Source: a virus. From it: DNA of 27,546 nt. The stretch spans positions 1 through 27,546 of IMG/VR virus record IMGVR_UViG_3300042691_017909. One strand, 5' to 3'. Of the stretch, positions 4,855-25,284 are shown in pieces. The first letter of the stretch is position 1, and every line of letters starts with the position of its first letter. The position numbers and the translations under genes are program-made. The notes beneath the pieces are model-generated. The model was not told the origin of the DNA. It saw only the letters and a program-made list of their open reading frames with translations, and did no database searches.

Positions 4855-5124
4855 ATGGCTTCTGTAAAGTCTGCTGTTCGTTGGGCTTGTAAAGAAGACT
4901 ATAATTATACTTGTCAATTTTGTTATCAGGTTTTACATCCTAATCAGCTTCAAATTCATCATATTTTAAGGCGTAGAGATGGTGGCAATAACCATTATAC
5001 CAACCTTATCCCTTTATGTGGTCCAGAGGCAAATAATTGCCATTGTATAGTCCATAGATACAATTACACTCACAATTCTAAAGGAGAACGAATTATGTTT
5101 CTTATCCACAGAGTCATCATTTGA
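4855..5124 (+). CDS. HNH endonuclease, 89 aa
   Basis: This is a compact HNH nuclease. CQFC (residues 20-23) starts a zinc-binding pair completed by later Cys residues (about 55 and 62-64). The HNH core is LQIHHILRRRDGGNNHYTNL followed by IPLC, with the conserved His-His pair, the central Asn (TNL) and the C-terminal His. It has no extra DNA-binding domain. It is the only plus-strand gene between minus-strand genes, has its own terminator, and therefore looks like an inserted mobile gene. Its TGA stop lies within the loop of that terminator. The function is DNA nicking or cutting, probably a free-standing homing-type nuclease. Confidence 0.85.
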   Translation: MASVKSAVRWACKEDYNYTCQFCYQVLHPNQLQIHHILRRRDGGNNHYTNLIPLCGPEANNCHCIVHRYNYTHNSKGERIMFLIHRVII

Positions 5125-6762: not shown

Positions 6763-6770
6763 AAATTTAT

Positions 6771-7262
6771 TTAGTTAATAATATTTAGTCTAGCATATTC
6801 TCCATATAATTCTAGAGCTTTTTCATTATATGCTTTTGCTGCATCAATTTCTTTTTTATAATCTCCTAAATTTATTGTTTTATTGTTATAAGTTATTCTT
6901 GCTCTCCAAGTTATTGTTGTGGTTTTTACTCCTGTAAATACTCTTTTAGCAACTCCTTTATATTTTGATAATGCATTTTTTTGAGGAGGTTTATTCCAGC
7001 AATTTTGTTGATGAGAACATATTCTTAAATTAGATTTTCTATTATCTAATTTATTTCCATTTATATGGTCTATGCTTTTATTTTTTGGAGCATTTAATAT
7101 AAATCTATGCATTAAATATTCTTCATTTTTTTTATTAAATTTTCTAACATATCCACAACTATCTGCATACCATCTAAATTGATTTAAGTATTCAAAATCT
7201 TTATCATCTACTATTGCAAATGTATTTGGATATTTTGTGGTACTAATATCTATTTTCTTCAT
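6771..7262 (-). CDS. HNH homing endonuclease with AP2 DNA-binding domain, 163 aa
   Basis: The ATG at 7262 (context aaatATG) is preferred over a GTG 11 codons upstream, because that one lies inside the terminator stem of the leader. The N-terminal half is a phage HNH_3-type nuclease: MHRFIL, then SIDHINGNKLDNRKSNLRIC with DH and N-x8-N catalytic residues, then SHQQNCWN. The C-terminal half (about residues 95-163) is an AP2 domain: SKYKGVAKR, WRARITYNNKTINLGDYKKE and AAKAYNEKALELYG. HNH-AP2 proteins are typical free-standing homing endonucleases of phages. It has its own promoter and attenuator-like leader (7263-7388), so it is an independent unit within the lysis region. Confidence 0.9.
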   Translation of the reverse strand: MKKIDISTTKYPNTFAIVDDKDFEYLNQFRWYADSCGYVRKFNKKNEEYLMHRFILNAPKNKSIDHINGNKLDNRKSNLRICSHQQNCWNKPPQKNALSKYKGVAKRVFTGVKTTTITWRARITYNNKTINLGDYKKEIDAAKAYNEKALELYGEYARLNIIN

Positions 7263-7355
7263 ATTTATAAAATAAAAACTCGGGCGTCCTACCACAGAGA
7301 ACCCGAGCTATTATTGGTAGGAACTTCACACTTGCGTGTTTATTCTCTGTGGTAT
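7263..7355 (-). promoter_or_regulatory. Attenuator-like leader upstream of the HNH-AP2 gene
   Basis: On the minus strand, CTCGGG (7302-7307) and CCCGAG (7279-7284) form a stem followed by TTTTTATTTT, an intrinsic terminator placed just before the HNH-AP2 start. Its 17-nt loop contains TTCTCTGTGGTA, perfectly complementary (12 bp) to TACCACAGAGAA at the extreme 5' end of the leader (about 7342-7353). TCCTACC in between is complementary to GGTAGGA of the same loop, and ACACGCAAGTGT forms a small hairpin. These mutually exclusive or pseudoknotted pairings are the layout of a transcription attenuator or riboswitch. I do not recognise a known class. Confidence 0.6.
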
Positions 7356-7359
7356 TTAT

Positions 7360-7388
7360 ATTATAACATAAATACATATATATAGCAA
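7360..7388 (-). promoter_or_regulatory. Sigma-70-type promoter for the HNH-AP2 gene
   Basis: On the minus strand TTGCTA (7383-7388) and TATAAT (7360-7365) are separated by 17 bp. The predicted start of transcription falls at the first base or so of the 12-nt leader strand that can pair with the terminator loop, which supports the pairing being functional. Confidence 0.65.
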
Positions 7389-7391
7389 TAA

Positions 7392-8162: not shown

Positions 8163-8237
8163 TGGCAAAGACGGTAGGAATTGAACCTACAACAACGGTT
8201 TTGGAGACCATCGTTATACCATTTAACTACATCCTTT
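8163..8237 (-). tRNA. tRNA-Trp (CCA anticodon)
   Basis: On the minus strand a tRNA can be drawn with the anticodon loop CTCCAAA (anticodon CCA, Trp) on an ATGGT/ACCGT stem, a T-arm GTAGG-TTCAATT-CCTAC, a D-region GTAGTTAAATGGTATAAC and an encoded 3' GCCA. The acceptor stem AAAGGAT/CGTCTTT has four or five good pairs (one G-U) but two mismatches next to the T-arm, so function is likely but not certain. It is 75 nt including CCA. It lies between structured leader RNA and the 134-aa gene. Confidence 0.82.
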
Positions 8238-8346
8238 GAAAATTTCCCCTTACAGATATACACCCAAGATTGCCTAGTTGTAGTCTATAAGGGGCGTTTT
8301 ACGGGAGCGACCCAACCATACACTTACAGCTGATATATGTATGGAC
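8238..8346 (-). ncRNA. Structured RNA upstream of tRNA-Trp
   Basis: There is no ORF here. On the minus strand three consecutive helices can be drawn: CCATACA/TGTATGG (about 8316-8344), GGGTCGCTCCC (about 8303-8313) and CCCCTTA/TAAGGGG (8246-8294), the last enclosing about 35 nt. A TATAAT at 8349-8354 lies a few bases upstream, so the RNA would start at about 8343 and run into tRNA-Trp. It could be a tRNA leader or an independent small RNA. Confidence 0.4.
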
Positions 8347-8371
8347 ATATTATAACCATATCATATAAAAC

Positions 8372-18392: not shown

Positions 18393-18419
18393 AGTTTTGT
18401 ACTTGATAATTACATTTTA

Positions 18420-18448
18420 ATTATAAACTAAAAAGAGCTATATTTCAA
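18420..18448 (-). promoter_or_regulatory. Candidate promoter of the glycosyltransferase
   Basis: On the minus strand TTGAAA (18443-18448) and TATAAT (18420-18425) are 17 bp apart. The -35 box lies inside the loop and stem of the terminator that ends the capsid transcript, and the -10 box lies about 28 nt before the glycosyltransferase ATG. Confidence 0.6.
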
Positions 18449-18454
18449 GCTCTT
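18433..18454 (-). terminator. Intrinsic terminator after the major capsid gene
   Basis: On the minus strand AAGAGCT and AGCTCTT form a 7-bp stem with an eight-base loop, followed by TTTAG (with the stem's own TT). It can attenuate the transcript between the major capsid protein and the glycosyltransferase. Confidence 0.7.
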
Positions 18455-18480
18455 AATAGTAGGTGAGTAGTATAAAAGAA

Positions 18481-24879: not shown

Positions 24880-25284
24880 TTATATTTCTGGCTGAAAAAA
24901 TTGCTTACATAAAATTTCAAATTGTCTATGGTGAGTTTGGCAAAGTGTCATCAAATTATTATATTTATGTTGTCCACCATATCTCAAAGGTTTTATATGA
25001 TGTACTTCTAAATTTTTATCTGTGCCACATTTTTCACATACTGGATTTTCTTCTAAATGGTATCCTCTTATTTTAGTTTTATATCCTTCTTTACTATAAA
25101 ACTTTTTATATTTTTTTACTTCATCAACATTCTTATCTCTATAATTTTTATTATATTCTCTAATATAATCTTTTTTTCTTTGCCTATATAACATTTTCAA
25201 ATGCAACTTTGAACATTTAGCACTACAATAACTTGTTTGTTTTCCAATTAATTGAGTTTTACATCTTTTACAATTCATATACAT
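24880..25284 (-). CDS. Zinc-ribbon HNH endonuclease, 134 aa
   Basis: The N-terminus is a zinc ribbon (MNCKRCKTQL with CSAKCS at about residues 20-24). After a basic linker (RQRKKDYIREYNKNYRDKN), the C-terminal part is an HNH core: NPVCEKCGTDKNLEVHHIKP, LRYGGQHKYNNLMTLCQTHH, with paired Cys, HH, Asn and the last His. Just upstream of terS is the usual place for the HNH gene that assists packaging in HK97-like phages, so it may be part of the packaging machine rather than a homing enzyme. ATG at 25278 is an alternative start. It has its own -10-like TATAAT at 25304-25309. Confidence 0.85.
   Translation of the reverse strand: MYMNCKRCKTQLIGKQTSYCSAKCSKLHLKMLYRQRKKDYIREYNKNYRDKNVDEVKKYKKFYSKEGYKTKIRGYHLEENPVCEKCGTDKNLEVHHIKPLRYGGQHKYNNLMTLCQTHHRQFEILCKQFFQPEI

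Follow-up and report, generated by a model that had tools for sequence, protein, structure and literature searches.

On the minus strand of the 27,546-nt window (the whole stretch of phage DNA that was analysed), positions 7388-7263 hold a promoter-like element and a leader, upstream of a gene for an HNH nuclease. The features referred to below are the following.

7733-7392, minus strand: DUF1064 gene, upstream of the leader
6763..7391, minus strand: inserted cassette (promoter, leader and HNH gene), as judged from the empty site in relatives
7360..7388, minus strand: promoter-like element TTGCTA-17-TATAAT with TG before the -10, recognised from the sequence (-35-like TTGCTA, 7388-7383; 17-nt spacer; -10-like TATAAT, 7365-7360); its core, ATGTTATAATATAA, recurs in relatives
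7343..7354, minus strand: segment A (DNA TACCACAGAGAA, RNA UACCACAGAGAA), at or about 1 nt from the expected RNA 5' end and complementary to the hairpin loop
7328..7339, minus strand: small hairpin ACAC-GCAA-GUGU with a GNRA-type loop, from folding
7316..7322, minus strand: segment C, UCCUACC (TCCTACC in DNA), which complements loop GGUAGGA and shares the GGUA of the target of A
7279..7307, minus strand: terminator-like hairpin CUCGGG-17-nt loop-CCCGAG (CTCGGG, 7307-7302; loop TTCTCTGTGGTAGGACG, 7301-7285; CCCGAG, 7284-7279); the loop includes UUCUCUGUGGUA (7301-7290) and GGUAGGA (7293-7287)
7269..7278, minus strand: U-tract UUUUUAUUUU (DNA TTTTTATTTT), from the sequence
6771..7262, minus strand: HNH_3 homing-endonuclease-like gene, 163 aa, without a Shine-Dalgarno sequence, from Pfam and phrog
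6762-6031, minus strand: M23 peptidase gene, downstream of the HNH gene

The leader thus reads TACCACAGAGAA, the small GCAA hairpin, TTCCTACC and CTCGGG-TTCTCTGTGGTAGGACG-CCCGAG-TTTTTATTTT, and is followed by the HNH ATG, which lies at 7262, 16 nt past the hairpin stem.

The nuclease domain was assigned using Pfam (HNH_3, E 7e-9) and phrog_99 (E 4e-36). An earlier reading made from the sequence only had named the product HNH-AP2; the Pfam assignment agrees with the HNH part, and the AP2 part comes from inspection only. Two further small HNH genes are found in the window, at 4855-5124 (plus strand) and 24880-25284 (minus strand). In the related phages L085, L088 and L089, just 2 nt separate the DUF1064 stop from the M23 start (TAA TT ATG). 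This represents the empty site, and in the window this junction is occupied by approximately 630 bp containing the promoter-like element, the leader and the HNH gene. The leader and the HNH gene therefore form one inserted cassette, presumably a homing one, and the leader most likely arrived together with the endonuclease gene. As only 8 nt separate the HNH stop from the M23 start, expression of the M23 gene probably depends on read-through. Other sequences follow DUF1064 at the same junction in L086 (1481 onward) and L087 (4340 onward), and the junction looks like an insertion hot spot.

A Shine-Dalgarno-like motif is missing from 34 of the 36 genes in the window. The best terminase match in the phylum of a Prevotellaceae genome (E 8e-76, 38%) was much stronger than the best in the phylum of a Lachnospiraceae genome (E 4.5e-42, 31%). 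Together, the scarcity of Shine-Dalgarno motifs and the terminase matches indicate that the host is probably a member of the Bacteroidota. Bacteroidota mRNAs are without Shine-Dalgarno sites, and structure close to the start adjusts how they are translated (PMC6847099).

The promoter-like element previously proposed is present, and matches the sigma-70-type hexamers at 10 of 12 positions with a spacing inside 16-18 nt, though this consensus is of the E. coli type and may not be that of the host. On its own, such a match is not above chance, with 30 promoter-like matches observed in the region and 30.8 expected. Between the genes of the window, the TTG...TATAAT spacing is more frequent than expected (3 versus 0.39), and the core ATGTTANANTATAA is also found directly upstream of the DUF1064 gene in three related phages (L087, L088 and L089). 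The primary sigma factor of Bacteroidota, the probable host group, favours TTTG/TAnnTTTG, not TATAAT (PMC6847099), and the reading as an E. coli-type promoter is therefore uncertain. If the element is a promoter, as its sequence suggests, a start at the usual 6-7 nt from the -10 hexamer would place the first base of the RNA at about 7353, one base into segment A. The promoter-like core that precedes DUF1064 in L087 (3971-3987) is palindromic, ATGTTATA-A-TATAACAT, and may function as a phage operator in addition to a -10 box. A further element, TTGAAA-17-TATAAT, lies between the major capsid gene and a glycosyltransferase gene (18393-18480, minus strand); here too, the consensus of the probable host differs.

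Segment A and the hairpin loop are complementary over 12 nt, without a mismatch. This is the sole 12-bp inverted repeat with a spacer of 60 nt or less in the 27.5 kb window. Shuffled windows contain a mean of 0.45 12-bp inverted repeats, or 0.025 when at least 5 G/C are required, and none of 2000 shuffles of the leader contained one. The perfect pairing of the first 12 nt with the loop, which had been claimed from inspection, is thus borne out, and it exceeds chance. Across 1.36 Mb of fetched DNA, which was mainly from phages, a terminator-like hairpin with its loop matched upstream was found with 12 nt of complementarity here and at most 10 nt elsewhere. The second segment said to compete for the loop, TCCTACC, is also where it was reported (7322-7316) and complements GGUAGGA. 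The leader as a whole folds better than its own shuffles (z -3.5). In addition, TACCACA, early in the HNH coding region (7242-7236 area, minus strand), repeats part of segment A and could pair with the leader loop too, a match of 7 nt that arises by chance in about 5.5% of cases.

The hairpin has the GC-rich stem and immediate U-tract of an intrinsic terminator (CUCGGG/CCCGAG, UUUUUAUUUU), and transcription would be expected to terminate at the U-tract. However, a loop of 17 nt is unusual for an efficient terminator. The standard scan used, which requires a short loop of 3-8 nt, returned 0 terminators because the loop is far outside the usual range.

Energies computed for the leader are model-dependent, and place the possible folds close together. 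The minimum-energy fold contains the terminator hairpin (-25.1 kcal/mol), and this was the case for most of the transcript lengths tried. Forcing the helix between the 5' end and the loop gives -24.0 kcal/mol for an RNA beginning at 7354 and -22.5 kcal/mol for one beginning at 7353. A rough estimate for an H-type pseudoknot holding both helices is -25.2 kcal/mol, as good as either nested fold, though its geometry is borderline as 5 nt must cross a helix of 11-12 bp. All three states fall within about 3 kcal/mol, and the model suggests that the leader is close to balanced between them. The equilibrium probability of the 5'-end:loop helix in the nested model went from 2% to 55% when the RNA was lengthened by one base on the 5' side and about 60 on the 3' side. 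When the RNA is grown base by base, the 5'-end:loop helix is complete from about 63-66 nt, before the terminator arm, which exists only at about 76 nt. This helix remains optimal until about 80 nt, after which the terminator wins. Refolding directly from one nested fold to the other would have to cross a barrier estimated at 18.6 kcal/mol, which is probably too high to do so while transcription proceeds.

The sequence-only reading had described an on/off switch built on mutually exclusive pairings. The two folds of near-equal energy are confirmed, and in nested models the A:loop fold and the terminator do exclude each other. However, segment A pairs with the loop and with neither strand of the stem, and the pseudoknot with both helices is estimated to be equally stable. 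Hence, strict exclusivity is not established, and the two helices may coexist.

The leader is known from one phage only. A blastn search against 50,697 phage records found no homologue, just short AT-rich or partial matches, and searches for the loop and stem patterns in viral contigs and for the loop pattern in genome contigs were likewise negative for a leader homologue. Both the leader and this HNH gene are absent from the 11 nearest phage records. Viral contigs and genomes yielded relatives of the HNH protein (best, 49% identity). The leader was absent from the upstream regions of 17 viral relatives, which were read; for the 11 genome loci with HNH relatives, the only check was that genome contigs did not contain the loop pattern. 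A lone example does not allow a covariation test, which keeps confidence limited. An inverted repeat matched in L084 was rejected, as it is a CACAGAG-type repeat in a GC-rich phage, without such a terminator hairpin and with no HNH gene evident nearby. Another 29 loop matches, and L214 and L215, are without the leader architecture and were counted as chance.

Regulation of a free-standing homing endonuclease had been thought unusual. This does not hold, because homing endonucleases of T4-type phages are known to be regulated by their own promoters, 5' hairpins, terminators inside the gene and autorepression, and the internal terminator of T4 mobE gives approximately 30% termination (PMC2988022). 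As is the case for I-TevI, segB, mobE (T4 and Aeh1) and seg43(25) of phage 25, the endonuclease gene here is part of a phage operon, and several of the T4-type genes have a promoter of their own, with strong hairpins close to the 5' end or internal terminators also occurring in the set (PMC2988022). However, the T4-type hairpins mostly hide a Shine-Dalgarno site (PMC2988022), and there is none here. Here, the hairpin is instead followed by a U-tract, and its loop can pair with the 5' end of the RNA. No sequence relation to the T4-type regulated genes was found or expected. What sets the leader apart from T4-type control is that the 5' end of the RNA pairs with a terminator loop, and it is at most a new variant of an established kind.

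Attenuators and terminator-type riboswitches consist of a promoter-proximal leader with alternative pairings and a U-tract before the gene, and the leader shares these three properties, but no ligand, peptide or protein is known for it. The antiterminator of a classical attenuator pairs with a strand of the terminator stem, whereas here the 5' segment takes the loop only, so that an H-type pseudoknot can hold both helices. The H-type pseudoknot riboswitches (preQ1, SAM-II and fluoride) also pair a hairpin loop with a distant segment, as the leader does. However, it has no covariance-model similarity to them, and its helix of 11-12 bp is longer.

The reading we prefer, though we hold it tentatively and put it slightly below an even chance, is that the leader is a cassette-borne attenuator that limits expression of the HNH gene, namely a leaky terminator capable of forming a pseudoknot. 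A transcript from the cassette promoter would start with segment A, which would pair with the hairpin loop as the loop emerges. Once the 3' arm and the U-tract emerge, the terminator hairpin would either displace A or join it in a pseudoknot. Part of the transcripts would stop ahead of the HNH gene and the remainder would read through into it and the downstream genes. As termination would be only partial, endonuclease expression would be low and the downstream M23 gene would not be fully cut off. Counting against an attenuator are the single instance of the leader, the HNH relatives that manage without one, the long hairpin loop, the promoter preference of the probable host, and the model-dependent energies and borderline pseudoknot geometry. 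No trigger or ligand is part of the mechanism, and ligand sensing by the leader is unsupported. A more specific version, where the very first bases of the transcript invade the terminator loop and the resulting pseudoknot sets read-through into the endonuclease gene, making the cassette carry a self-contained RNA switch, we regard as unlikely. We know of no description of attenuation via a 5' end and a terminator loop for homing endonucleases. If the attenuator works as proposed, a selfish endonuclease gene would bring its own expression limiter into the operon of a phage without Shine-Dalgarno signals. The limiter would work where a ribosome-binding site cannot be hidden as in T4, with the downstream genes still expressed, and would be a compact, testable case of control of a terminator via its loop instead of its stem.

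Several other readings account for parts of these data. The region could be a separate small RNA gene, with a promoter, a pseudoknot RNA of about 80 nt with its 5' end inside the terminator loop, and an intrinsic terminator. The RNA would act in trans or merely be stable, and the HNH gene would be expressed by read-through from upstream. The expected start is the first paired base and the end is the U-tract, such that the same architecture would protect both ends, and the estimate for the pseudoknot equals the stability of either nested fold. There is also an 11-nt complement of the loop in the phage's own terminase mRNA, but this match is weak and falls on the codons of an NPFLPQE stretch. 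As the RNA would have no relatives, ends just 16 nt from the HNH ATG and was inserted together with the HNH gene, we give this reading a low probability. The terminase large-subunit gene match is TCCTACCACAG (23577-23567, minus strand), and about 2.6% of permuted loops do equally well on that strand. A plain insulating or leaky cassette terminator, in which the 12-bp pairing merely adds stability to the hairpin or survives as a remnant with no regulatory role, would agree with the terminators and hairpins documented near homing-endonuclease starts (PMC2988022) and with the terminator being the minimum-energy fold at most transcript lengths tried. This is also rather unlikely, given that a perfect 12-nt match to the loop is very improbable by chance and, unless the cassette was inserted recently, would not persist unused.

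The inverted repeat could instead represent paired half-sites of a DNA operator, bound just past the promoter by the endonuclease or by a phage repressor that would repress it. I-TevI does repress its own promoter (PMC2988022), the first arm overlaps the expected +1 to +12, and the arms are 53 bp apart centre to centre, or about 5 helical turns. However, a DNA site is not required to have its second arm exactly in the loop of a hairpin with a U-tract, and no similar site was recognised at the insertion site, making an operator quite improbable. A ligand-sensing riboswitch of an undescribed class is by far the least probable of these readings. The order of a 5' hairpin domain, alternative pairings and U-tract is aptamer-like, but the HNH gene gives no metabolic link to a ligand, and no homologues define a conserved aptamer. 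At the Rfam gathering threshold, only a tRNA was found in the window and nothing matched the leader; below the threshold, matches were at the level of chance (E 1.5 or worse). The riboswitch-like character proposed for the leader is therefore not upheld, and the accompanying statement that no riboswitch class is recognisable agrees with the strict and permissive searches. Rfam likewise gave no support for a group I intron remnant or an IscB-type guide RNA, and the nuclease belongs to the HNH_3 type. A T-box (tRNA-sensing) leader was considered because TTCCTACC also occurs in the T-arm of the phage tRNA-Trp, but there was no T-box match and UGGU of the loop does not fit the GCCA end of tRNA-Trp.

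A different non-coding segment, just upstream of the tRNA-Trp gene (8237-8352, minus strand), also folds well (z -3.5) and has no Rfam match. It is kept upstream of the tRNA in the relatives L085 and L086, and is possibly a structured leader or an uncharacterised RNA.
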